IMG/VR virus record: IMGVR_UViG_3300047994_000180
Coordinates: 1-20,663 of that record
DNA length: 20,663 bases
Reading direction: 5' to 3' (one strand)
Source of the DNA: a virus
A model generated the notes under the pieces. It saw only the letters and a list, made by a program, of their open reading frames with translations. It made no database searches and was not told the DNA's origin. This document shows, in pieces, positions 1,890 through 19,666 of the stretch (position 1 is its first letter; each line of letters starts with the position of its first letter). Position numbers and translations under genes: made by a program.

Positions 1890-2072
1890 TCAGAGCAATA
1901 GCATCTTCGGACATGTCTTGCACCTATAGAGAATATCATCTCCATATCTATTTACAAATTCATATCCTTTGGAATGCGGACATTTTCCTTGTAAGATTAA
2001 AATCAATTGATTTTCTTCTGCAAGAAATATCTTTTTCTTATCCTCTTTCTGTGTTAGCGATTCTTGGAACAA
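1890..2072 (-). CDS. Small zinc-binding-type protein, 60 aa, TTG start
   Basis: The protein has Gly-Lys-Cys-Pro-His at about residues 29-33 and Cys-Lys-Thr-Cys at about 51-54, a Cys/His set that could bind one zinc ion. No ATG is available; the TTG at 2072 has a strong AGGAG six bases upstream, inside the end of the dCMP deaminase gene, which supports this unusual start. It is a paralogue of the gene at 3358-3531: both carry Lys-Ile-Phe, then Leu-Gln-Gly-Lys-Cys-Pro-His, then a Gly/Val spacer and Cys-Lys-x-Cys. Function is unknown; a nucleic-acid or protein adaptor is possible. Confidence 0.8.
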   Translation of the reverse strand: MFQESLTQKEDKKKIFLAEENQLILILQGKCPHSKGYEFVNRYGDDILYRCKTCPKMLLL

Positions 2073-2508
2073 TTTTGACTCCTGCTTCGGTCAGCATTTC
2101 TTGAGCTACAAGCATATCTTCTTGCCATCGTTCTGGCATTTTTTCTGCGGTATGGTTTTCATCAACGACCAATGTCTTGATGCCGCGCTGAATGATTGAT
2201 TGGGCACAGTTAGTACATGGTGAGAAAGTGACAAACATGACACAATCACTAAGATCGGCCCTGGATGCTAAATCCATTGCATTGCGCTCAGCATGGCAGA
2301 ACCATTTGTATTTGAGCGGACGGTCATGTCTCTCAGGAACAGTGTCGTCTGTTCCCATAGGCATTCCATTAAATCCCCACGATATGGGTTTTCCATCGGA
2401 TGTAGTGATAACTGCACCCACTTTGGTAGATTCGTCTTTCGACCATGACGCCACATCGTGCGCCATTTTTAGCAATCTACCTGCCCATTTATCGTTAGTT
2501 ATTTCCAT
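2038..2508 (-). CDS. Deoxycytidylate (dCMP) deaminase
   Basis: Converts dCMP to dUMP, feeding thymidylate synthesis for phage DNA replication; a cytosolic zinc enzyme. The 156-residue protein has the cytidine/deoxycytidylate deaminase signature: His72-Ala-Glu74 (zinc ligand and proton shuttle) within Cys-His-Ala-Glu-Arg-Asn-Ala, and Pro97-Cys98-x-x-Cys101 (the other two ligands). An early Lys-Asp-Glu-Ser-Thr-Lys-Val-Gly-Ala stretch (24-32) is typical of the family. Length fits a single-domain enzyme. It may belong to the ComE-like deaminases, whose substrate preference cannot be told by eye. The ATG at 2508 has no Shine-Dalgarno sequence; an ATAAATA box ends five bases before it, suggesting a leaderless late transcript. 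The 3' end overlaps the zinc-protein gene by 35 bases. Confidence 0.93.
   Translation of the reverse strand: MEITNDKWAGRLLKMAHDVASWSKDESTKVGAVITTSDGKPISWGFNGMPMGTDDTVPERHDRPLKYKWFCHAERNAMDLASRADLSDCVMFVTFSPCTNCAQSIIQRGIKTLVVDENHTAEKMPERWQEDMLVAQEMLTEAGVKIVPRIANTERG
2079..2083 (-). promoter_or_regulatory. Shine-Dalgarno AGGAG deciding a TTG start
   Basis: AGGAG on the minus strand lies six bases before the TTG at 2072. There is no in-frame ATG between the upstream stop and the conserved zinc motif, so this site fixes the start of the 60-residue protein. Confidence 0.7.
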
Positions 2509-2513
2509 GCGAA

Positions 2514-2521
2514 TATTTATT
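2514..2521 (-). promoter_or_regulatory. Late-promoter-like box AATAAATA, five bases before ATG
   Basis: On the minus strand AATAAATA (2521-2514) is followed by TTCGC and then the ATG of dCMP deaminase. T4 late promoters have TATAAATA at -10 and start about six or seven bases downstream, so transcription would begin at about the start codon. Confidence 0.5.
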
Positions 2522-2851: not shown

Positions 2852-3076
2852 CTATGCCTTGTAATACCATCTTAGTTTGAATGCAAGCAACGTCTCTTCA
2901 TCATTGAATGCATATATAATTCCATCATCTTGTAGGTAACTATACCAATGGACAAATCTTCTACCAATACATTCTTTGCACCATTCTTCGACGTTTTTGA
3001 TTAACATTACGTCTTGGAGATTTTCTCTTTGTACTAAAATCTGATATGGCCAAACTTCTTTCTTGAGTTTTCTCAT
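2852..3076 (-). CDS. Hypothetical small protein, 74 aa, tail-motif family
   Basis: I use the ATG at 3076, which overlaps the previous stop as ATGA, instead of a TTG two codons upstream. The protein is Trp/Tyr-rich (Lys-Lys-Glu-Val-Trp-Pro, Val-His-Trp-Tyr-Ser-Tyr) and ends with a clear copy of the shared tail: Tyr-Ala-Phe-Asn-Asp-Glu-Glu-Thr-Leu-Leu-Ala-Phe-Lys-Leu-Arg-Trp. The same tail occurs in the neighbouring genes at 3073, 3824 and 4231 with unrelated N-terminal parts. Soluble, no metal motif, function unknown. Confidence 0.83.
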   Translation of the reverse strand: MRKLKKEVWPYQILVQRENLQDVMLIKNVEEWCKECIGRRFVHWYSYLQDDGIIYAFNDEETLLAFKLRWYYKA

Positions 3077-3357
3077 AACCAAGTCAACTTGAAAAGAGTT
3101 GCATCTTCGTCATCTTTTATGCAAACGGTGTGCATAACATCGCCACCTTTGAATCTAAAGGAGCAATGATAGTAGCCCTTCATATTTTCTTGCATCCACT
3201 TTTCAAAGAGTCGTTCGTCATCTGAATACACCCAGCAATACCATCCTACTATCTCTTCTCTGAACTCTCTGTCGAGTCCACCGTAGGATTTTCTTAGAAC
3301 TTCGGGAATGTCGAACCAACCGTCAACATATTTCCAGTTTCTAACAACGATTTTCAT
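3073..3357 (-). CDS. Hypothetical small protein, 94 aa, tail-motif family
   Basis: Aromatic-rich protein (Trp-Tyr-Cys-Trp-Val-Tyr near residue 39). It contains a helix with Leu-Phe-Glu-Lys-Trp-Met at about 50-55 and ends with the family tail Asp-Asp-Glu-Asp-Ala-Thr-Leu-Phe-Lys-Leu-Thr-Trp-Leu at the exact C-terminus. The order of a beta strand, a helix that could position a Trp, another strand and the tail also fits the genes at 2852 and 4231, suggesting a small common alpha/beta fold. The ATG at 3357 directly follows the TAA of the upstream gene. Function unknown. Confidence 0.83.
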   Translation of the reverse strand: MKIVVRNWKYVDGWFDIPEVLRKSYGGLDREFREEIVGWYCWVYSDDERLFEKWMQENMKGYYHCSFRFKGGDVMHTVCIKDDEDATLFKLTWL

Positions 3358-3531
3358 TTACCACCACTTGGTCTCTCTACATAATTTGCATTCATGTGCA
3401 TCATCATTATGTCCGTGTCCAACATGTCTCCATCCGCCATTATGCGGGCACTTTCCCTGCAGAATTCGCAGGGTCTGCTCTTCCTTAGATGGAGTAAAGA
3501 TTTTCTCCATTTGTTCGTCGTCTAATGTCAT
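3358..3531 (-). CDS. Small zinc-binding-type protein, 57 aa, paralogue of 1890-2072
   Basis: I choose the ATG at 3531, which forms an ATGA overlap with the stop of the preceding gene, instead of an in-frame GTG 13 codons upstream with no spaced Shine-Dalgarno sequence. The protein has Ile-Leu-Gln-Gly-Lys-Cys-Pro-His, several more His residues, and Cys-Lys-Leu-Cys near the end, so a Cys/His zinc site is likely. It aligns over nearly its full length with the 60-residue protein at 1890-2072. The ATG start makes the two N-termini almost equal in length, which supports it. Confidence 0.82.
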   Translation of the reverse strand: MTLDDEQMEKIFTPSKEEQTLRILQGKCPHNGGWRHVGHGHNDDAHECKLCRETKWW

Positions 3532-3833
3532 ATGCCTATCAACTTCTTGATTACCAAAAACTCTTCCCACGCCTGTTTCAATGCAGGATGTTTTTCTAAT
3601 TGCTCTCTTGTCGGTGGGCTGAGGGGCGCTTCTTTGTTACCACTAAAAAGTGCCCAATTGGTACCAATCCATACATAAGCCTGGTCGGTATTGTGATCCA
3701 TATACACATCACCGTGCTGTGGATTAGTTGGTTTTGTACCAAGAAAGTTTATTCCTGCCATAGCTCTTAGATCAATCTCCGCTTTGGTTATGCAATATTG
3801 TGGTGGATTCTGTAGATTTGTTATTACGGCCAT
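3528..3833 (-). CDS. Hypothetical phage protein, 101 aa
   Basis: Two recognisable parts: residues 33-65 (Pro-x-x-Pro-x-x-Gly-Asp-Val-Tyr-x-Asp, then Ala-Tyr-Val-Trp-Ile-Gly-Thr-Asn-Trp) look like the short beta-hairpin repeats found in phage tail and adhesin proteins. Residues 73-101 (Pro-Pro-Thr-Arg-Glu-Gln-Leu-Glu-Lys-His-Pro-Ala-Leu-Lys, ending in Trp-Glu-Glu-Phe and Lys-Lys-Leu-Ile-Gly-Ile) match a C-terminal element that I recall from many large-phage proteins of unknown role. A minor structural role is possible. The ATG at 3833 overlaps the end of the upstream gene by 10 bases. Confidence 0.8.
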   Translation of the reverse strand: MAVITNLQNPPQYCITKAEIDLRAMAGINFLGTKPTNPQHGDVYMDHNTDQAYVWIGTNWALFSGNKEAPLSPPTREQLEKHPALKQAWEEFLVIKKLIGI

Positions 3834-4231
3834 GTTAGTTCAAATAGCGTAGCATGTTCTTGAGTAACAAAGTAAATCTCCAAAATATTAAAATCGTGGC
3901 TAGATATATCCCAATCCCAATCTATTTGTTGTATTCCTATATTTTCCTCGAGCCAAGGGCGATAACGATCATTAGGTTCGGTACTACCGGGAGGCATAAA
4001 AGGCCGCCTCGCCATATAAGTGTGATTTATTTTTTTCAATTTTAAATTTTTATCAGATATAAAATTTGTTCTTTTTTGTATTATATCTTGTAAAGTTAAT
4101 ACATATGTAAATAGACTACCGTACATATTGTAATCTTTACATACCGGACATCTCCATGGATGTTTTATATCTGATTCATCCAATCGTCCTATTACCATGC
4201 ACTTCGTGCATACAGGTGGCCCTAATCCCAT
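3824..4231 (-). CDS. Zinc-ribbon protein with the shared C-terminal tail
   Basis: The N-terminus carries Cys-Thr-Lys-Cys and, about 18 residues on, Cys-Pro-Val-Cys-Lys, a four-cysteine zinc ribbon. The C-terminus is the family tail, Val-Thr-Gln-Glu-His-Ala-Thr-Leu-Phe-Glu-Leu-Thr-Trp-Pro. I prefer the ATG at 4231, giving 135 residues beginning Met-Gly-Leu-Gly-Pro-Pro and a TAATG junction with the upstream stop. An ATG eight codons upstream (4255, 143 residues) is possible. The middle (Met-Ala-Arg-Arg-Pro-Phe-Met-Pro) is basic. The modular layout suggests the tail is a reusable domain; function is unknown. Confidence 0.82.
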   Translation of the reverse strand: MGLGPPVCTKCMVIGRLDESDIKHPWRCPVCKDYNMYGSLFTYVLTLQDIIQKRTNFISDKNLKLKKINHTYMARRPFMPPGSTEPNDRYRPWLEENIGIQQIDWDWDISSHDFNILEIYFVTQEHATLFELTWP

Positions 4232-4575
4232 TACACTGGAAGAGAATTTTGCCATCTTAGTACAAATGCAGTAAGCGTTTCTTCATCATAGATATTCACA
4301 TAATATGCGTTATCGTTATATAGCCTTACTTTTTGTGTCCAGTAATTGGACTCAGGAAACTGTTTAAGCCATTCTTCTATAGCAGTAATTGAATCTTCGT
4401 TAATATTTGTAATAAATTCGCAGCACCAATGATTATCGAATTTTATTTTCTTAAAGGTAATATTACGAGACAGCGTTTTTGTATAAATGCTACCACCAAC
4501 ACCTGTCATCGGTTGAACACCAATTATACCTTGAGCTATAGTTCCGGGAGTAATATGCCGAATCATCGGCATCAT
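4231..4575 (-). CDS. Small protein with gp23-like N-terminal segment and shared C-terminal tail
   Basis: The first 30 residues (Met-Pro-Met-Ile-Arg-His, then Ile-Gly-Val-Gln-Pro-Met-Thr-Gly-Val-Gly-Gly) resemble the conserved early region of T4-type major capsid protein gp23 (Gly-Val-Gln-Pro-Met-Thr-Gly-Pro). The rest does not look like a capsid protein: it is a short alpha/beta domain ending in the family tail Tyr-Asp-Glu-Glu-Thr-Leu-Thr-Ala-Phe-Val-Leu-Arg-Trp. I start at the ATG at 4575 (114 residues) because an upstream ATG at 4701 would overlap the MazG gene by 110 bases. The true start is uncertain. Function unknown. Confidence 0.75.
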   Translation of the reverse strand: MMPMIRHITPGTIAQGIIGVQPMTGVGGSIYTKTLSRNITFKKIKFDNHWCCEFITNINEDSITAIEEWLKQFPESNYWTQKVRLYNDNAYYVNIYDEETLTAFVLRWQNSLPV

Positions 4576-4591
4576 TATTTTTCTAAACTCT

Positions 4592-4999
4592 TTATATGTC
4601 GTCGGCTGCTCTGTTTTCCGAATACCAAACAGAGAACTTACCGCCCGGATAACGTGCTTCCAGTTTGCGTACATTTTCTTCAATAACTTCATTTGGGTCA
4701 ATTCCTAATGCAATACAGGCATTTATCCAATACCACATAATATCGCCGAGTTCTCGTTTCATATGAAACACATTATCTTCGTTATATTCCTTACCGTGGA
4801 AAAGAATCTTTTTTACAATTTCGTTAAATTCGCCGCCTTCGCTTGCAAGACCAATGCCGGCTGTGGTAAGACGTGCTACCTGAATTCCTTTGGCTGATAA
4901 TTCTCTAATACGGGCAATATATAGCTCATCATTTTTGCTTACGTCGCTTGTTACTCCGTCTACGAATGTTTGGTAGTTTGTTAGAATAGTTTTGTCCAT
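4592..4999 (-). CDS. MazG-like nucleoside triphosphate pyrophosphohydrolase
   Basis: Predicted to hydrolyse (d)NTPs to monophosphate and pyrophosphate with Mg2+. Phage versions have been proposed to clean up nucleotide pools or affect host alarmones. The 135-residue protein shows the all-alpha NTP-PPase signature: Glu54-Gly-Gly-Glu57 with Glu60, then Glu83-Leu-Gly-Asp86, inside Ala-Ser-Glu-Gly-Gly-Glu-Phe and Glu-Leu-Gly-Asp-Ile-Met-Trp-Tyr-Trp. A later Asn-Val-Arg-Lys-Leu-Glu-Ala-Arg-Tyr-Pro segment is also typical. Single-domain length suits a phage MazG-like enzyme. The ATG at 4999 has AAGGA five bases upstream, and a sigma70-like promoter lies about 45 bases further up. Confidence 0.88.
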   Translation of the reverse strand: MDKTILTNYQTFVDGVTSDVSKNDELYIARIRELSAKGIQVARLTTAGIGLASEGGEFNEIVKKILFHGKEYNEDNVFHMKRELGDIMWYWINACIALGIDPNEVIEENVRKLEARYPGGKFSVWYSENRAADDI

Positions 5000-6461: not shown

Positions 6462-6469
6462 TATTTATG
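6462..6469 (-). promoter_or_regulatory. Late-promoter-like box CATAAATA
   Basis: CATAAATA on the minus strand, overlapping the preceding stop codon and 25 bases before the start of the 63-residue gene, which carries AGGAGG. ATAAATA also occurs by chance in this AT-rich sequence. Confidence 0.4.
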
Positions 6470-6698
6470 AACCGAATCCAAATTGAATTCTGAACATTGT
6501 TGCGTCTGTAGCCTCTTCAAATCCAAATTTATTTCCACCTAACATTGTCCATCTACCTTCTAAATTTTCCACACACCATATAACTATGCCTTTTTTTGCA
6601 ATTTCTGTATAAGGAATATTTAAATGTGTAAATGTCCAACTTGTATCTTTGTCCCTAATGAGTTCATTCATAGGAACATACATATTTTTTTTTGTCAT
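6465..6698 (-). CDS. Hypothetical small protein, 77 aa, tail-motif family
   Basis: I start at the ATG at 6698, which has GAGAGGG about six bases upstream. A longer frame to 6764 would run through the promoter at 6718-6746. The protein contains Ile-Val-Ile-Trp-Cys-Val-Glu-Asn and Gly-Arg-Trp-Thr-Met-Leu-Gly-Gly, then ends in a divergent family tail, Phe-Glu-Glu-Ala-Thr-Asp-Ala-Thr-Met-Phe-Arg-Ile-Gln-Phe. The early promoter and good Shine-Dalgarno sequence point to early expression; function unknown. Confidence 0.78.
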   Translation of the reverse strand: MTKKNMYVPMNELIRDKDTSWTFTHLNIPYTEIAKKGIVIWCVENLEGRWTMLGGNKFGFEEATDATMFRIQFGFGS

Positions 6699-6717
6699 AG
6701 TGTGCCCTCTCTGTGTT

Positions 6718-6746
6718 ACTATACAGTGTTTTAGTAAGTATGTCAA
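6718..6746 (-). promoter_or_regulatory. Sigma70-like early promoter, near consensus
   Basis: Minus-strand TTGACA (6746-6741), 17-base spacer, TATAGT (6723-6718). An inverted repeat TTACTA-N10-TAGTAA spans the spacer and -10. The expected start lies just upstream of the GAGAGGG ribosome-binding site of the 77-residue gene. Confidence 0.75.
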
Positions 6747-6766
6747 CATTCCATTAGAGGTCATAA

Positions 6767-7537: not shown

Positions 7538-7663
7538 CTATTTATCGCAAAAATCATATAACTTAGTGTTATGATTGAAATAGACTTTTCCCGATTTTAC
7601 CAGATCAAAAATCAAAAGTTCAGACTTAGCATGTGCATTATTATGTTCTTCTACTGTCAGCAT
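7538..7663 (-). CDS. Possible small protein, 41 aa
   Basis: A short ORF filling most of the gap between clpP and the hydrolase. It encodes a soluble peptide starting Met-Leu-Thr-Val-Glu-Glu-His with a central Leu-Leu-Ile-Phe-Asp-Leu-Val segment and a Tyr/Phe/Asn-rich end. AAAGAG lies upstream but farther than usual. Support is that it exactly fills the gap on the shared strand and ends at the late-type box; I recognise no family. Confidence 0.5.
   Translation of the reverse strand: MLTVEEHNNAHAKSELLIFDLVKSGKVYFNHNTKLYDFCDK
7539..7546 (-). promoter_or_regulatory. Late-promoter-like box GATAAATA upstream of the hydrolase
   Basis: GATAAATA (7546-7539 on the minus strand) lies 22 bases before the hydrolase ATG and overlaps the stop of the small 41-residue ORF. 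The leader that follows contains the AAAGGA ribosome-binding site. Confidence 0.45.
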
Positions 7664-8293: not shown

Positions 8294-8301
8294 GATAAAT
8301 A
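8294..8301 (+). promoter_or_regulatory. Late-promoter-like box GATAAATA, five bases before ATG
   Basis: GATAAATA on the plus strand is followed by GTGTT and then the ATG at 8307. No Shine-Dalgarno sequence precedes this ATG, and there are only 27 bases to the divergent clpP start, so a leaderless message is suggested. Confidence 0.5.
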
Positions 8302-8306
8302 GTGTT

Positions 8307-8696
8307 ATGAAACTAAAAGACATTCTTCTTGAATCACCCACCGATGTAGTAGCTCGATTTTACAAGGAAGCGAGCGAGTCCTACGACCGTTTCTATAATC
8401 CAGAGGATGTCAAATATAAGAAAAAGAATAAAGAATATTACGATGAACACTTTAAAGAATGGTTCAATGAAGATATAGTTCCTATTTTTACAAGACCAGT
8501 AACCGAACCTCAACCCGAATATCGTCCAAAGCCTCAAGAAGGTAAACTTCAGACACCGGGTTATCGAGGTTTACAGTATGCGCTTGCTGCTGCAGGATTA
8601 CCATACAACCATAATGTTCAAAGATATAAAGAAGATCCTGCTCGAGCAGTTGCATCAACTACCATGGACGCGACCCGAAATTCAAATGGGCAATAA
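8307..8696 (+). CDS. Hypothetical phage protein, 129 aa, lone plus-strand gene
   Basis: Starts [10 protein letters not shown], resembling the short N-terminal peptides of T4 internal head proteins. A Lys/Tyr/Glu-rich helical region follows (about 25-55), then a Pro-rich linker, then [18 protein letters not shown] at about 90-107. I place the start at 8307 and not 21 codons upstream, because the upstream extension would overlap clpP and the late-type box sits five bases before this ATG. It is the only gene clearly on this strand and converges with the homing-endonuclease remnant, overlapping it by 15 bases. A virion role is inferred from the N-terminus; not established. Confidence 0.82.
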
Positions 8697-10272: not shown

Positions 10273-10443
10273 TTATTTTTTCTTTGCGTCGTTATCGAAC
10301 TGCTTTTTAGTTGCTTGTACAATTCCGTGAAATCTTTTATCAGCTTTTTTTGTATCGCCGGCCTTATCTGCCGCTGTGGCATCTTTACCAGCAGCAGTCT
10401 TATAATCAGCAAGCTTCTTAGTCGATATCTCGTCTAATCTCAT
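10273..10443 (-). CDS. Small basic phage protein, 56 aa
   Basis: A short Lys/Ala/Asp-rich protein beginning Met-Arg-Leu-Asp-Glu-Ile-Ser-Thr-Lys-Lys-Leu-Ala-Asp-Tyr-Lys and ending in a lysine run. The ATG at 10443 forms an ATGA overlap with the stop of the 563-residue gene, so it is almost certainly co-translated with it. The opening and the Arg-Phe-His-Gly-Ile-Val-Gln-Ala segment recall, from memory, small uncharacterised proteins common in T4-like phages. It is the last gene of the late-type block; only a weak AT-rich hairpin follows. Confidence 0.78.
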   Translation of the reverse strand: MRLDEISTKKLADYKTAAGKDATAADKAGDTKKADKRFHGIVQATKKQFDNDAKKK

Positions 10444-12131
10444 CTTCCGTAACCCTTCATGTTACCCAAAGATGCAAAACGCTTCATCCATGTCAGCACA
10501 TCGGGATCTGCTTCGTTACTTTCTTCAAGCTTACCGGCTTTTGCCATTTTAGCGTGAACTGCACCAGCAACTTTTTCTCCAGCTTCCTTACTTCCGTACT
10601 CTTTAGCTGCTTTCTTTTCTACAGCTTTGAATCCAGTTGTCTTTCCGTTGTTGTGCTTACCTTCGTCCTTTTCAGAAACAATTGCTTCGTCGATTTCTCC
10701 GCCTTCGGAGTCAGATTCACCATCTTTATTTTCTTTTTCTTCAGCTTTCTTTTCGGCATCAATTAACCATTCTGGTTTTCCGCCTTTCTTTTCACCTAAT
10801 GTTCTCATACCGAGTACAGGTGCTACAGATTCTACAAGTTTATCGTATTTTTTCAACGATTGAAGGATTGCTGCTATATCTTTATCTACGTTTTCCATAA
10901 TTCTTCCTTTGTTTACCGATTCCGGCATTGTTGGTGCAGTTCCGGGGGGATATTTCCCACCTCCCGATGGGCCGACACCTGCACCCATTGATCCTAAACT
11001 TCCACCTGTCTGCATATCACCGGCCTCATCGTCCTCTTCACTAAGCTGAGGTTGCTCTGGAGGAGTATCTGTAGCTGGTTGTTCTACCTTTTTGGGTCTT
11101 ACTTTATCTGTAAAATAACCTGCATTTACAAACTTATGTAATTTTTCAAGTTCCTTATCTAATTCGTAGGTCTTTATTTTGAAATCATTATCTTGCAATG
11201 TAGGATCATCAGAAAGTTCTTTGAATGCTTGTTCGATTTTTTCTTTGTTAGATTTGATCCCATGAACAATATCAGTATAGATATAAGGAAAACGTTCCTT
11301 GATTATATTCTTATTAACTTGATCGTCAGCAATATCTTTGAATGATAATCCACTGTCGGCACCAAACTGATATTTTTCATCTCCAGTAATGTGCTTTTGA
11401 TTAAATCCACTAATCTTATCAACTTTTTCAGGATTCTTAGGAAACATTTGGAACAAGAAAGCTTCGCCGGCATATCTATGGAAATGACTATCGTGATTTG
11501 AATTGGCTGTACACCATTGTGTACCTAACCCAACAGCACAAGCAGCAGCCCTGTTCAATGTAACAAAGATCTTGTAGTCGTCATTATCAACAACCTTGAT
11601 AGTTTTTGCCTTTTTATTTCTTTCTGCATTCTTTGCAGCATCACGAACCTGCTCAAGCTTATCATTATAGTGAACAGTCATGTATCTACCAAGATCTCTT
11701 ACACTATTGAACTTGGGAATATCCCTGTGATTGGCATCAAGCATGTTTCTATTCTTTAGAATAGTCCAATCGCGCATATTCATATTCATAACACCGGTAA
11801 TATCTTCCCAGTTATGACTTCCAGCAATATAGCGTCTTACAATCCATTCACTATAGGCACCATCTCTCGAATAAATAGTGCCTTCGTAACCGGCAGCTTC
11901 GATTCTGTCAAGATTTTCTAGGAACCATTGTGCTAATTCCTCATCCGGTAACTTTTTTGCCTGTTTACTAAATCCTGCAGCAAATGCACGAGGATTTGAT
12001 GAAGCATCATCTCTGATAGCATCTGCTAAATTAGAAACCAAATTTTTATCATTCATAACACGCTGGCTGCCCTTTGTTAGGGCAACCGCCTCAGTTAAGA
12101 ATGCTTCAATAAGCTGATCTAATTCATTCAT
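10440..12131 (-). CDS. Large putative virion-associated protein with GTxWCTA motif, 563 aa
   Basis: The N-terminus Met-Asn-Glu-Leu-Asp-Gln-Leu-Ile-Glu-Ala-Phe-Leu-Thr-Glu-Ala resembles T4 capsid-targeting peptides, with Leu-Thr-Glu|Ala fitting the gp21 protease cleavage rule. Residues 30-300 form a conserved-looking domain with Gly203-Thr-Gln-Trp206-Cys207-Thr-Ala, then His-Phe-His-Arg-Tyr; this motif recurs in phage proteins I cannot assign a function. Residues about 345-400 are a disordered Pro/Gly/Glu linker, and the rest is Lys/Glu/Ala-rich and helical. The ATG at 12131 overlaps the previous TAA (TAATG). Co-transcription with the 1045-residue gene suggests a late structural or injected protein; this is inference. 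Confidence 0.82.
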   Translation of the reverse strand: MNELDQLIEAFLTEAVALTKGSQRVMNDKNLVSNLADAIRDDASSNPRAFAAGFSKQAKKLPDEELAQWFLENLDRIEAAGYEGTIYSRDGAYSEWIVRRYIAGSHNWEDITGVMNMNMRDWTILKNRNMLDANHRDIPKFNSVRDLGRYMTVHYNDKLEQVRDAAKNAERNKKAKTIKVVDNDDYKIFVTLNRAAACAVGLGTQWCTANSNHDSHFHRYAGEAFLFQMFPKNPEKVDKISGFNQKHITGDEKYQFGADSGLSFKDIADDQVNKNIIKERFPYIYTDIVHGIKSNKEKIEQAFKELSDDPTLQDNDFKIKTYELDKELEKLHKFVNAGYFTDKVRPKKVEQPATDTPPEQPQLSEEDDEAGDMQTGGSLGSMGAGVGPSGGGKYPPGTAPTMPESVNKGRIMENVDKDIAAILQSLKKYDKLVESVAPVLGMRTLGEKKGGKPEWLIDAEKKAEEKENKDGESDSEGGEIDEAIVSEKDEGKHNNGKTTGFKAVEKKAAKEYGSKEAGEKVAGAVHAKMAKAGKLEESNEADPDVLTWMKRFASLGNMKGYGR

Positions 12132-15100
12132 TATGCTAGTTGTACCAAGTTATCTCTTAGTGAATCAAGAACAGGTCCTAAAGCTGCTGAATTTCCATTA
12201 GCAACATCGGTAATAAATGCTTTATATTCATCTGAACCTTGATGAGAATGTGATGCATCAGCAAGTGCTGTTCTTAGTTGATAATAAAATGTACCCGACA
12301 TATTTACATCTCCCGAAGTATCAATTGTTGCAAGAAAATTCTTTAACTTGATTGCTTTTTCCGATAAATCTTTAGCACCTTCAAAATTTCCACCATCAAT
12401 ATAACGCTTGATACGATTGTTGATTTGAAGAACTGCTTGATTTCCAAGTTTCTTAAGTACAGGACGTACCTTTTTAAAGATAATCGAGATTGCTTTTTGT
12501 TCAAACATCTCGGGGGTCTTCTTCATATCGGCTCTTTTATTTATTTTATCGCGAGGAACGGCACCATATCTCCATCCTTTACGATTGATAGAATCACTTT
12601 CTTCGTCATCTGGTCGATCTTGTACACCAGTAACCCAAATTGTCTGGAGTCTACCAATTTGTGCAGCCAATAGATCAAATGCATTGTCGGAATTTTGAAT
12701 ATCCTTATTTGCAATCTTACCCATTCTTGCTTTAGATACAGTTGGATCACCAAAACGGTCTGATTTTTCTGGATTTTTTTCTTCTGGCTTTAGTAATTCT
12801 GGATCAATTTGTTGTCCATCGTCGGTAAAAGCAATAATTTGATACGGAATAGTATTATCGCGAGCTGGATTATATTCTTTACCTTTCATATCAAATTCTT
12901 CTTTTCTATCATTAATATATTTTGTGTATGGCTTTATAGCAGCAACACCATTTGATGCCGAGACAATAACAAAGTTATCTCCATTCTTTTTAAATTCAGT
13001 CCATAGAGGTCTATGGATGTCGGCGTTTGTAATTTTTAGAGGTTGCAAATCGGCATCATTGTCTAAACGATGGCGCTTGTGCAACCAGCGAACTAAATGT
13101 TGTCCGCCTGGCTTTTTACCAATTAGTTTGCTTAGTGAACTTTCTTTGATAAATGCTTCATCGAGTTCAGCACCAAATTTAATCTTCTCAAAAAGTGTTG
13201 CCTTTAAGAAATTTTGTGCTTCTGTTAAACGTGGGAAATCATTATTCATATATGGAATAGAAGGTGCGCCAGGAGTTACCGCATCTTGATCAGGATATGC
13301 ATAGATATATTGTCCGACTGGATCGCGAACTACGTGGAATCTTACACCATCGGCTCTAAATTCCCTAATATCTGGCTTATATCCGGGAATGGCCATACCG
13401 AAACTTAGATCTACCTTTCCTAAATCTTCAGCATTATTTAGAAGCCATGAACCCACTGCGCGCATTTCTGCATCTGTATTTGGACCTTTTCCATCTACAT
13501 TAGCAATAGTTTGAATTTGTTCAAGTGGAGTTCTAGTAAACATACCGAATACCTGTCTACCCATTCCGCGAATATTTTTTTGCATAAATCCTGGAAGATT
13601 TTCTACATCATGCCACTCTGGAGACTGTACACCAGTTGCTTGCATTGCTTTAGAAATAACAGCCGGAACATCTGCCCCAGTAACATGAGCTACTTCAGAT
13701 CCGGGTATTTCCGGTTCAAGTTCTGGTTCTCCAGTACCTGCCTCTGGATTAATGCGATTCATTAAATCACGCATAGAAGGCGAATCTCCAATACCGGATG
13801 TTTTTTGCCTTGTATTTGCAGCACTCGATTTAGGAAGAGACATCGAACCTGGAACTTCTGGATTATCTTCGGGCTCGTCAATAACAGTAGGAGCATTTTT
13901 GTTGCCAAGAATATCCATATCATCAAAATCAAATCCGACATCATGTTTTGTTTTTGTCGATTTTGTTTCTTCGGAAACTTTACCCATAACTTCATCATGA
14001 ATCTTAGTTAATTGCGTTGGATCCATACTCATAAGTTCATTAGCATGATACATCTTTGATGACTTGCTTAATCCTAAATCTTGCATGTATTCGATTTGAT
14101 CAACAAGTGCTAATGCGTCATCACCATTCATTGATGGATGAGACATTTCTTTATTAAATTCTCCACGAGCAACTTCATCGTCTATATCTGGTTCTTCTGT
14201 TGAAAGATCATCGTGAGATGGATCATACCATCCTTCTTCATCAAGATTTTCGTCACCATAAGTCATTGGCGAATTTTGTCCCCCTGTTGGAACTACTCTT
14301 GTAGACTGAACAATATTTCCAAGTTTAACACCTTTACCAGAACGTGGTTTTTCGGAAAAATGTTCCTCTTCTTCGTCTACTTCGCCCAGCAAAGGCATCT
14401 CGACTTCAATTTCTCCAGGAACTTCTTCACACCCGTGCATCTCATTTTTATCATGATGACCACACATAGGACAGACTTTCGATTCTCCATCTGACATACT
14501 CATTTCTGGATTATTTTCTGGAAAGCATTCTGAACAATCCCAAGAACCACATCCGCAAACGTGTCCCGGCATTACTTCTGCTATTTCTTGTACACTTTCT
14601 GTGTTTAGTGCTTCTTCGACCGCACCAATCCATTTACTAAATTCGTCTCTTTGATCCATTGCTGGCTCCCTTGATTGCATACCAACATTCTGTGGTTGTT
14701 CGAGTTTTACGTTATCTGATCCTAAGGACATTGGTGATAAATTACCATCGTTATCCATTTCTCCAAAATTATCTTTTGCATCTTGTTCTAGAACTGTTGC
14801 TACATTTGCAACGGGAACAACAATCTGTTTATTATCAAAACTAATGATACAATCTTGTCCTGTTGTACCGTATCCGATAAAAACACCAAATCCGGGTCCG
14901 ATAACAGCGCCATAAACATCTGCAACTTTTACCATATCACCTGGACGAAATTCTGGCTTGTCCCTTTGTGTTCCAATAGAATCAGCTTCCTGACTCATAT
15001 GAAACCAATCGTTTCCTTTTTGATACGGATCTTCGTAATCGCGTTCTGGTGCAGAAAATCCATCAGCGGAAAGTTCTCTATTGATACCTTTTATATCAAT

Positions 15101-15268
15101 TATGGCACCATTAGGAGTGCTATGCATAAATCTTCCCGTGCCGCCACCGAATTTTGGATCAATCATTACGGTAGCGTGTTTTTTGAACATTACCTGTTTT
15201 TCAGGTTGGTTCGAAAATACTGCCGGAACGCTTTCCATAATTTTTAGCCATTTTCTAATATCTGACAT
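12131..15268 (-). CDS. Giant multidomain putative virion protein, 1045 aa
   Basis: Starts Met-Ser-Asp-Ile-Arg-Lys-Trp-Leu-Lys-Ile-Met-Glu-Ser, a capsid-targeting-like peptide (Ile-Met-Glu|Ser). Residues 105-160 form a KOW/SH3-like beta segment (Phe-Arg-Pro-Gly-Asp-Met-Val-Lys-Val). Residues 238-280 hold a cysteine cluster (Cys238, 240, 245, 248, 266, 269, 280; His271-272), likely zinc-binding. Residues 290-560 are acidic and low-complexity; after about 640 comes a folded Lys-rich C-terminal region with an internal Ile-Lys-Glu-Ser site. AAGGA precedes the ATG at 15268, and a GATAAATA late box lies 25 bases upstream. A structural, head-internal or DNA-delivery role is inferred; I know of no established function. 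Confidence 0.83.
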   Translation of the reverse strand: MSDIRKWLKIMESVPAVFSNQPEKQVMFKKHATVMIDPKFGGGTGRFMHSTPNGAIIDIKGINRELSADGFSAPERDYEDPYQKGNDWFHMSQEADSIGTQRDKPEFRPGDMVKVADVYGAVIGPGFGVFIGYGTTGQDCIISFDNKQIVVPVANVATVLEQDAKDNFGEMDNDGNLSPMSLGSDNVKLEQPQNVGMQSREPAMDQRDEFSKWIGAVEEALNTESVQEIAEVMPGHVCGCGSWDCSECFPENNPEMSMSDGESKVCPMCGHHDKNEMHGCEEVPGEIEVEMPLLGEVDEEEEHFSEKPRSGKGVKLGNIVQSTRVVPTGGQNSPMTYGDENLDEEGWYDPSHDDLSTEEPDIDDEVARGEFNKEMSHPSMNGDDALALVDQIEYMQDLGLSKSSKMYHANELMSMDPTQLTKIHDEVMGKVSEETKSTKTKHDVGFDFDDMDILGNKNAPTVIDEPEDNPEVPGSMSLPKSSAANTRQKTSGIGDSPSMRDLMNRINPEAGTGEPELEPEIPGSEVAHVTGADVPAVISKAMQATGVQSPEWHDVENLPGFMQKNIRGMGRQVFGMFTRTPLEQIQTIANVDGKGPNTDAEMRAVGSWLLNNAEDLGKVDLSFGMAIPGYKPDIREFRADGVRFHVVRDPVGQYIYAYPDQDAVTPGAPSIPYMNNDFPRLTEAQNFLKATLFEKIKFGAELDEAFIKESSLSKLIGKKPGGQHLVRWLHKRHRLDNDADLQPLKITNADIHRPLWTEFKKNGDNFVIVSASNGVAAIKPYTKYINDRKEEFDMKGKEYNPARDNTIPYQIIAFTDDGQQIDPELLKPEEKNPEKSDRFGDPTVSKARMGKIANKDIQNSDNAFDLLAAQIGRLQTIWVTGVQDRPDDEESDSINRKGWRYGAVPRDKINKRADMKKTPEMFEQKAISIIFKKVRPVLKKLGNQAVLQINNRIKRYIDGGNFEGAKDLSEKAIKLKNFLATIDTSGDVNMSGTFYYQLRTALADASHSHQGSDEYKAFITDVANGNSAALGPVLDSLRDNLVQLA

Positions 15269-15293: not shown

Positions 15294-15301
15294 TATTTAT
15301 C
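15294..15301 (-). promoter_or_regulatory. Late-promoter-like box GATAAATA of the large-protein operon
   Basis: GATAAATA (15301-15294, minus strand) sits 25 bases before the ATG of the 1045-residue gene, with AAGGA between. It lies just after the RNA ligase terminator, in a true intergenic gap, and is the best-placed late-type box in the window. Confidence 0.6.
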
Positions 15302-17711: not shown

Positions 17712-18040
17712 TACTCGTCTTGATCTTCAATATATTCGAGGATAATTTTATCGTAATTATTCTTGATTGCAAACTCAATAACTTCAGCAAGTACAATTTC
17801 TTCTACTGTAGAAGAATACCAAAGAACTTTATTGTGATTTACTTGTTCAAAATTTGATAATACTTTTATTGACTTTTCAAGATATTCATCAAATGTGCCA
17901 AATTCCTCATTATAGGGGCCAAGTGCTGCATCGAGAATATCAGATTGTGTCATAATCTGAATTGTTTTTAGTATTTTACCTGAACGATCGGCGACTGTAT
18001 AATCTGTGCCTAAAGAAAGAACATCGGTATTTTTGTACAT
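17711..18040 (-). CDS. Hypothetical acidic protein, 109 aa
   Basis: I start at the ATG at 18040, which forms a TAATG overlap with the SOD stop and has GAGG upstream; a longer frame to 18070 would run further into the SOD gene. The protein begins Met-Tyr-Lys-Asn-Thr-Asp-Val-Leu-Ser-Leu-Gly-Thr-Asp-Tyr and has an acidic C-terminus (Glu-Tyr-Ile-Glu-Asp-Gln-Asp-Glu). Two helix-like hydrophobic segments occur but no membrane span. Coupling to SOD suggests co-expression; no family recognised. Confidence 0.8.
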   Translation of the reverse strand: MYKNTDVLSLGTDYTVADRSGKILKTIQIMTQSDILDAALGPYNEEFGTFDEYLEKSIKVLSNFEQVNHNKVLWYSSTVEEIVLAEVIEFAIKNNYDKIILEYIEDQDE

Positions 18041-18588
18041 TATGATAACCTCACATTTACAATATCCCAATTCACTATTTTCCAGAATTCTTTTAAATAT
18101 TTTTCTTTATCAGCACCGTAGTCTCTTTGGTAAGAATGTTCCCACATATCTATAATAAATGCTACGTTATCTGTAATTTTATGATTTGGAATGGTTTTAA
18201 TAGCACCTGATGTGCTGAGATACACCCAACCCGAACCGTGTATGCCAAGGGCTATTTCGGTTAGTTTAGATTTGAATGAATCGAAGCTCCCAAATTTATT
18301 TTCAATAAGAATTTGAGATGCCCCGGTTGGTTTATTGTTATTCTTAGGTGCCTGAAGCTGCGTAAAGAATAGTGTATGTAATTTTGCTCCGGCTGTCTGA
18401 AATTCGCCTTTGCCTGCAAGTGATTTCTTTACATAATTTTTGTATAATGTGCCATAATGTAAAGAGATTATTTCTTTTGAAAGTACTGGTGATAGAGCAC
18501 TTTCTGATACTGGTAGCTTTGCATAGTAAACATCTTGTTCTGCTGTTACTTTTTCAATAAGAGTGCGAAATGAGGTTGGATCATTCAT
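18040..18588 (-). CDS. Fe/Mn-type superoxide dismutase
   Basis: Predicted to convert superoxide to oxygen and hydrogen peroxide. All four metal ligands are in place: His44 (Ser-Leu-His-Tyr-Gly), His71 (Lys-Leu-His-Thr-Leu-Phe-Phe), Asp147 and His151 in Asp-Met-Trp-Glu-His-Ser-Tyr. The Gly-Ser-Gly-Trp-Val-Tyr-Leu segment (118-124) and the C-terminal Trp-Lys-Ile-Val-Asn-Trp are also typical. Length (182) is slightly short of bacterial SodA/SodB, and Fe versus Mn cannot be decided by eye. No signal peptide, so cytoplasmic. The ATG at 18588 has no Shine-Dalgarno sequence; a CATAAATA box lies five bases before it. It is coupled downstream to an acidic small protein. Confidence 0.92.
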   Translation of the reverse strand: MNDPTSFRTLIEKVTAEQDVYYAKLPVSESALSPVLSKEIISLHYGTLYKNYVKKSLAGKGEFQTAGAKLHTLFFTQLQAPKNNNKPTGASQILIENKFGSFDSFKSKLTEIALGIHGSGWVYLSTSGAIKTIPNHKITDNVAFIIDMWEHSYQRDYGADKEKYLKEFWKIVNWDIVNVRLS

Positions 18589-18593
18589 AGTAG

Positions 18594-18601
18594 TATTTAT
18601 G
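18594..18601 (-). promoter_or_regulatory. Late-promoter-like box CATAAATA, five bases before ATG
   Basis: CATAAATA (18601-18594, minus strand), then CTACT, then the ATG of superoxide dismutase. It overlaps the stop codon of the upstream gene. The spacing to ATG equals that at dCMP deaminase and at the plus-strand gene. Confidence 0.5.
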
Positions 18602-19634
18602 TGAAATGTAGAAACTTTGACTTGATTTCGTAAAACCGTTTTGCTCCTGCCATTCTCTCTAGAACAGCTCTATCAACGATTTCCTTAATATATTCGGATA
18701 CAACTTCTTCAATTTTATCAAAAGGAATATCATTAATATTAATATTTGATACATTAATAAATGTATCATTAGAAATTTCTTGACCTTGTATTGCTGGGAA
18801 GAAGGTAACATTAGCACCTTCTCTTAAAATATTTCTATAGTCGATATTTATATCGTAATTATTTGCTACCGGTTGTACCGATAGTATAGTATGAAAATTT
18901 CTACCGTCAGAATTTACGCATCCAAAAATTTCAACTTTAGAATTATGATGTGCGGTAATTCTATTTTCATCTATTATGCCCGAAGAACCTTTACCAAATG
19001 TTATATGACTATAGGCTGAAGATTCAAGTGCAATGATATTTCTATACACAAACGAAAGTGCCGAAATATGATTTTTATAAAATGTAGATAAATGTAGACT
19101 AGAAGAAATTCCAAGAATATAATTAGTTACACAATTTAATGCACAATGACTTTCTATTTCTTCTACTATTTCTACAGATAATGTGTCATTTATTTTAAAT
19201 ACAACAACTGAATTATAAAATGTTTCATAATCAGTTTTGTAAGTTACATAAATTGGTTCATCTATATCGCCTACAATCTCAAACATAGTGTGATTTTGGC
19301 ATACAAGATAAGCCAATGTCGAAAATGTTTCGGCATTATATAGACTTTTTGGATTACTATTTTGATTATTAGACTCGACTGAATTAGTAATCAAAATGTA
19401 AGGATGATCATACATTTCTTTACTGACATGTATTTCATTACCGGAAATAATTATGGTCATACCCTTTAGGGTAGGATCTACAATCATTTGCGTTTTATTA
19501 TTTTGAATTAAAAAACGCTGTTCGAAAAATTTATCAAGTTCGGTATTTTTGTATTTTTCTTGTGAAGCTGAATACAATAATTCCGAATAATATTTTCCTA
19601 AAAAAGTTTTAATTGGTATAAGATTTGTCGACAT
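18597..19634 (-). CDS. Uncharacterised beta-rich protein, possibly SufB/SufD-like, 345 aa
   Basis: Not firmly recognised. The first 100 residues are mixed alpha/beta. Residues about 140-290 show regularly spaced short strands (such as Val-Val-Val-Phe-Lys-Ile, Ile-Ala-Leu-Glu-Ser-Ser-Ala-Tyr-Ser-His, Asn-Ser-Lys-Val-Glu-Ile-Phe-Gly) that recall the beta-helix of the Fe-S scaffold proteins SufB/SufD, followed by a C-terminal helical region with Lys-Ile-Glu-Glu-Val-Val. The resemblance is one of pattern only; the catalytic Cys/His of SufB are not identifiable. If right, adjacency to SOD would make an iron-sulfur/oxidative-stress pair. GGGA lies before the ATG at 19634 and a late-type box upstream. 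Very AT-rich. Confidence 0.75.
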   Translation of the reverse strand: MSTNLIPIKTFLGKYYSELLYSASQEKYKNTELDKFFEQRFLIQNNKTQMIVDPTLKGMTIIISGNEIHVSKEMYDHPYILITNSVESNNQNSNPKSLYNAETFSTLAYLVCQNHTMFEIVGDIDEPIYVTYKTDYETFYNSVVVFKINDTLSVEIVEEIESHCALNCVTNYILGISSSLHLSTFYKNHISALSFVYRNIIALESSAYSHITFGKGSSGIIDENRITAHHNSKVEIFGCVNSDGRNFHTILSVQPVANNYDINIDYRNILREGANVTFFPAIQGQEISNDTFINVSNININDIPFDKIEEVVSEYIKEIVDRAVLERMAGAKRFYEIKSKFLHFT

Positions 19635-19658: not shown

Positions 19659-19666
19659 TATTTATT
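19659..19666 (-). promoter_or_regulatory. Late-promoter-like box AATAAATA
   Basis: AATAAATA (19666-19659, minus strand) lies in the short gap between clpS and the 345-residue gene, 24 bases before its ATG. The placement fits a late promoter, though AT-rich chance matches are possible. Confidence 0.4.

Follow-up and report, generated by a model that had tools for sequence, protein, structure and literature searches.

G-ATAAATA boxes four or five bases before ATG mark candidate leaderless late genes in jumbo phages related to PA5oct

The window analysed here, by which we mean the whole stretch of DNA, is a virus contig of 20,663 bases. It encodes ClpP, ClpS, Hsp20, a superoxide dismutase (SOD), dCMP deaminase, MazG, an ATP-dependent DNA ligase and an RNA ligase, a gene set that matches one block of the Pseudomonas jumbo phage PA5oct. 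In that phage the orthologs of SOD (172979), of a plus-strand gene starting at position 8307 of the window (the 8307 gene; gp213 in PA5oct) and of dCMP deaminase (183218) are found within 11 kb. A nearer relative than PA5oct is the 369-kb IMG/VR contig G001, with a DNA ligase at 71% identity. Judged from these matches, the window is a piece of a PA5oct-related jumbo phage. Small adjacent proteins encoded at 2852-4701 and 6465-6764 have a common C-terminal pattern (e.g. EDATLFKLTWL, DEETLLAFKLRW, QEHATLFELTW and DEETLTAFVLRW) and look like a paralog family. The gene for a 345-aa protein upstream of SOD (18597-19634) adjoins the ClpS and Hsp20 genes and gives a weak match to the SufBD core (PF01458, E 1.6e-4, below the cut-off).

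The motif ATAAATANNNNNATG, in which ATAAATA is followed by ATG after exactly five bases (a spacing denoted N5), occurs three times in the window, at 2520-2506 (minus strand), 8295-8309 (plus strand) and 18600-18586 (minus strand), and an upstream Shine–Dalgarno (SD) core of at least four bases is found at none of the three sites (0/3). Both observations agree with a preliminary description of this DNA, in which the three genes were proposed to form a distinct class of leaderless late genes. On the plus strand, the late promoter box GATAAATA (8294..8301) and a five-base spacer, GTGTT (8302..8306), precede the 8307 gene, a candidate leaderless late gene encoding 129 aa (8307..8696). On the minus strand, CATAAATA (18594..18601) precedes a gene for an Fe/Mn SOD (18040..18588; PF02777, E 6e-23; PF00081, E 2.3e-6), also a leaderless candidate, and AATAAATA (2514..2521) precedes the gene for dCMP deaminase (2038..2508; PF00383, E 5.6e-21; phrog_174, E 2.6e-41). 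Late-type boxes with a longer leader are likewise present on the minus strand: GATAAATA at 7539..7546 (N22 before 7516, with AAAGGA), GATAAATA at 15294..15301 (N25 before 15268, with AAGGA) and AATAAATA at 19659..19666 (N24 before 19634). These three had been listed previously together with one before 20464, which is a weak example because the nearest exact ATAAATA lies about 98 bases away; a further leadered box, CATAAATA at 6462..6469 (N25 before 6436, with AGGAGG), had been missed. Dinucleotide shuffling of the window gave a mean of 0.28 matches to ATAAATANNNNNATG, and three matches were reached in 2 of 100 shuffles. Within the window the three sites are suggestive and post hoc, and the strong evidence comes from relatives; as the window is only a fragment of a jumbo phage, the genome-wide test was run in those.

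All 16 orthologous records of the 8307 gene, of which about 12 are distinct and which include PA5oct, have GATAAATA at exactly N5; the spacers vary, and the start is kept from M1 in all orthologs. The N5 spacing is retained in PA5oct gp213 at 34% identity, and also in a 35%-identity homolog on the viral contig L224. The 8307 gene is the sole plus-strand gene in its neighbourhood and gp213 is likewise inverted relative to its neighbours, so that no upstream gene can supply a leader. Moreover, clpP no longer abuts the box in several relatives, and the box consequently belongs to the 8307 gene. The protein has no PHROG match, and Pfam gives only a sub-cut-off match. Its N-terminus, MKLKDILLE, ends in LxE and resembles a T4-type capsid-targeting peptide. 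In the PA5oct record (NC_071039.1, 180252-180267) the annotated ATG of gp213 lies 15 bases (five codons) upstream of the conserved start, the AUG of which begins at 180252 on the minus strand; the frame as annotated thus includes the late promoter box.

The SOD gene is preceded by the box in 8 of 8 close orthologs, at N4 in six, N5 in one and N8 in one (N4/N5 in 7/8). In PA5oct the SOD box is leadered (N23), so SOD is not leaderless everywhere. The dCMP deaminase site fared differently from what had been proposed: its 15 orthologs all lack the box, and the site is an outlier of the N5 set, with C at -1 and G at +4 where the class consensus has other bases. On both grounds the site is probably fortuitous or very recent, and dCMP deaminase was dropped as a third leaderless gene. 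These two genes are also where coupling to, or read-through from, an upstream gene has to be weighed, with the box incidental or serving as an extra late start. The gene upstream of SOD has a leadered late promoter of its own, and its TAA stop shares bases with the SOD box, so that translational coupling is possible there; dCMP deaminase begins 18 bases past a same-strand stop, and its orthologs have neither the box nor an obvious SD. However, in a relative in which the upstream stop has moved (13 instead of 10-11 bases before the ATG) the SOD box is still at N4, and the explanation is inapplicable to the 8307 gene, alone on its strand. We regard coupling or read-through as rather unlikely, and leaderless late transcription as having strong sequence support at the 8307 gene and at SOD, two of the three sites.

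In the genome-wide test, ATAAATA was counted at every spacing upstream of ATGs that begin ORFs with a minimum length of 50 aa. In the profile of G001, N4 has 10 matches and N5 has 9; other spacings below N15 are sparsely represented, and the counts rise again in a wide hump over about N16-N31. The 19 matches at N4 and N5 compare with ~1.7 expected from other A/T 7-mers of the same composition (Poisson P ~6e-14), and among all 21 permutations of A5T2 (five A, two T), which served as composition control, the next-best after ATAAATA had 5. In 16 further relatives, deduplicated by N-terminus, the counts are 9 at N4, 14 at N5, 4 at N6 and 5 at N7, followed by a trough at N8-N15 and a hump at N17-N32 centred near N22; one of the genomes contributing to the enrichment has 45% GC. 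The genome-wide enrichment anticipated in the preliminary description is thus found in relatives. The identical N5 spacing claimed there describes a real class, but N5 alone is too narrow, since the box stands at N4 as well as at N5, with a tail of cases reaching N7. An N5 excess is found also in SCTP-2 (7 at N5 and 0 at N4, N6 and N7) and in XacN1 (50% GC). Atu_ph07 has no matches at N4-N6, and the whole genome of PA5oct has 4 at N4 and N5 together, not above other A/T 7-mers; the evidence from PA5oct is the conserved gp213 site rather than a genome-wide count. When T4 was analysed in the same way, no ATG was found at N0-N11 from ATAAATA. RaK2, KVP40, P-SSM2 and S-PM2 show no real N5 excess, with counts close to those of a reversed-pattern control; of the single matches checked, P-SSM2 64245 is an annotated start, and P-SSM2 227087, S-PM2 122216 and RaK2 99440 are not. 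N5 as a general feature of the T4 superfamily was rejected on these results. Across IMG/VR, the module TGATAAATA-N3-TT-ATGAAAAT occurs in 59 stretches; a control lengthened by three bases occurs in 15. ORFs of 50 aa or longer begin at 48 of the 59 and at 9 of the 15, respectively.

Two late-gene architectures are thereby distinguished. SD cores of at least four bases are absent from the N4-N7 class (0 of 58 genes) and accompany 108 of 148 genes (73%) in the N16-N32 class. The box is preceded by G in 64% of the former and 66% of the latter, giving a common G-ATAAATA, and since this same box occurs in both classes, the same promoter would serve both. Start codons at N4-N5 comprise 43 ATG, 2 GTG, 5 TTG and 3 CTG, the non-ATG codons being near background; a few TTG ORFs are found at N5-N7 as well, and the preference for AUG is thus not absolute. 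In the N5 class, T occupies -1 in 25 of 27 genes and A follows the ATG (+4) in 24 of 27, and the segment upstream of the box is T-rich. Alternative downstream starts with an SD were considered for the N4-N7 class and discarded, with only two weak TTG/GTG cases encountered. The distinct leaderless class put forward in the preliminary description accordingly stands as an N4/N5 class lacking an SD across relatives, with the 8307 gene and SOD as members; its extension to dCMP deaminase and to T4-type phages in general does not.

AU-rich sequence upstream of SD-less start codons helps initiation. The A/T box, flanked in the N5 class by the T-rich segment, might by this token not be a promoter but lie within a longer mRNA, where, as an AU-rich site for ribosomal protein S1, it would enhance translation independently of an SD. 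We consider this very improbable: in G001 the N4/N5 enrichment is confined to ATAAATA and does not extend to the 20 other arrangements, the leadered late promoters have the preceding G as well, and upstream of the 8307 gene there is no gene on its strand. Chance, in the form of three post hoc matches in an AT-rich genome, finds some support in the two shuffles that reached three and in the unconserved dCMP deaminase site, for which it is the best reading, but can hardly account for the whole: the enrichment and conservation in relatives, including the 45% GC genome and the excess in the 50% GC XacN1, refute it for both the 8307 gene and SOD.

The genes with short-spaced boxes, read here as candidate leaderless late genes, include many endonucleases. 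In G001, 9 of 23 N4-N7 genes match PHROGs of homing, HNH or other endonucleases, and PhoH and NUDIX are also among them; recurrent members across relatives are PhoH (N6-N7) and a membrane protein (N4). The leadered set holds matches to tail tube, baseplate wedge and head-tail adaptor proteins, plus some homing endonucleases. Homing endonuclease genes of G001 often have an N4-N7 late box of their own (77524, 186873, 262810, 275045, 288938, 293862 and 321900), as if promoter and start codon travelled as a single cassette. A family of viral proteins of 67-80 aa (MKINEIISENFAGAFASV...DVGNLxYxxPVKxPMIKR) is preceded by TGATAAATA-N5-ATG in many IMG/VR contigs (L186, L189, L207, L208, L242 and others); the one member searched, a 68-aa protein with the N5 module, had no relative among the phage records covered. 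Many late genes, furthermore, start with a peptide ending in (L/I)xE, for instance at 8307-8696, 10440-12131 and 12131-15268 of the window and at loci of SCTP-2, XacN1 and PA5oct. These N-termini are like the T4 capsid-targeting peptide with its gp21-type site, which suggests that a large set of proteins may be packaged into the head of these jumbo phages. Such N-termini were tried as a hallmark of the leaderless class and rejected, as they are common in leadered late genes too (24/75 against 50/259; Fisher P 0.03, inflated by orthologs).

In T4, the late box TATAAATA lies at -13 to -6 (PMC1524935), so that +1 is the sixth base after the box (box+6), where a purine peak of 78% is seen in the T4 genome. 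Base composition over 105 leadered, SD-bearing promoters of the clade shows A peaking at box+5 (62%) and box+6 (52%), with purine at 71% and 67% respectively; this A peak precedes the purine-rich SD zone. Box+5 and box+6 are the positions held by the A of the ATG at N4 and N5, respectively. From this promoter geometry we infer that transcription of the N4/N5 genes starts at the A of the ATG, the predicted +1 of the 8307 gene being the A at 8307. A candidate late sigma was located through weak matches to T4 gp55: the proteins in question, of 304 aa in G001 and 280 aa in PA5oct, match the PHROG late sigma family phrog_12791 (E 4.7e-78 and 8.1e-82, respectively), with phrog_12791/phrog_234 matches found in both genomes. 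A gp55-like sigma is encoded also by SCTP-2 and XacN1; the 20.7-kb window itself carries no sigma gene. A search for PF02916, the family of the T4 gp45 clamp, gave a match in T4 and none in four relatives. Their late activator may accordingly not be the one known from T4; a divergent gp45 clamp is possible.

In combination, these results lead us to propose, at a probability of roughly 85%, that the short-spaced boxes are T4-type late promoters used by a gp55-like sigma, with G-ATAAATA set so that transcription would start at the A of the ATG and produce a leaderless mRNA, in the 8307 gene and SOD but not in dCMP deaminase. The proposal builds on what was observed directly: the box, its spacing, the absence of an SD, the enrichment, the conservation and the gp55-like gene in relatives. 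The gp55-like phage sigma on RNA polymerase would recognise the TATA-like G-ATAAATA box, the placement of which would bring the transcription start onto the A of the ATG. A leaderless mRNA (5'-AUG...) is the expected product, and it could be translated without an SD in the way usual for leaderless messages, with the ribosome recognising a 5'-terminal AUG. The 5' ends, the timing and the leaderless translation of the N4/N5 genes are in this manner predicted from the sequence. In one architecture, serving recognisable virion structural genes, the box would lie 16-32 bases upstream and the leader would contain an SD; in the other, serving homing endonucleases, PhoH, NUDIX, SOD and the 8307 gene, it would lie 4-5 (to 7) bases upstream with no SD. 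The N4/N5 architecture appears to be a lineage-specific second form of T4-type late genes, and apparently one undescribed in the searchable literature. In that literature, made up of openly readable papers, 'leaderless' was not found together with TATAAATA, and a search for leaderless late phage genes returned only AR9 and unrelated work.

A broader proposal, which we hold to be about evenly balanced between right and wrong, is that a T4-related jumbo-phage lineage fused late promoter and start codon into a compact module, G-ATAAATA-N4/5-ATG, making leaderless late mRNAs for mobile homing endonucleases, for accessory enzymes and for candidate capsid-targeted proteins. Translation in the late phase would thereby have an SD-dependent structural part and an SD-independent leaderless part that are separately regulable. 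If this is true, a single phage sigma drives two mechanistically different kinds of late mRNA, and late expression could be tuned at the level of the ribosome, e.g. by late phage changes to initiation factors or ribosomes. The dozens of genes concerned, with their orthologs, would constitute a natural set for testing leaderless translation in bacteria that otherwise use SD sequences. They would also offer annotators a start-codon rule, applicable for example to PA5oct gp213, whose annotation extends five codons beyond the conserved start.

A close parallel is provided by the T4 late promoters (TATAAATA; gp55/gp33/gp45), with which the clade shares a 7-base core, the lack of a conserved -35 motif, a gp55-like sigma (in relatives) and leadered genes with an SD; the start predicted for the clade, about six bases past the box, would agree with T4 as well. 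Unlike that of T4, which starts with T, the box of the clade starts with G, the first base being variable among other T4-like phages (PMC1524935); T4 also lacks an N4/N5 class, and the relatives tested lack a PF02916 clamp match. phiKZ and AR9 are likewise jumbo phages with a late promoter class of their own, but employ phage multisubunit RNA polymerases and TATG or AACA-N6-TA/G motifs, and the AR9 leaders measure 26-491 bases (PMC5312081). Leaderless mRNAs such as that of lambda cI and mycobacterial transcripts (PMC4633059) resemble the proposed ones in the absence of an SD and in having +1 at the A of the AUG, a position predicted for the clade; they differ in that the module of the clade, known here from sequence, is linked to the box of a phage late sigma and recurs at many genes within a single phage. 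Finally, the T4 homing endonucleases I-TevI and SegB have their own late promoter just upstream, which confines their expression to late infection (PMC2988022), and such a close late promoter recurs in the clade class, in which homing and HNH endonucleases are frequent. The T4 versions, however, keep an SD about eight bases before the AUG and are regulated by an RNA hairpin (PMC2988022), whereas the module of the clade leaves no room for an SD.
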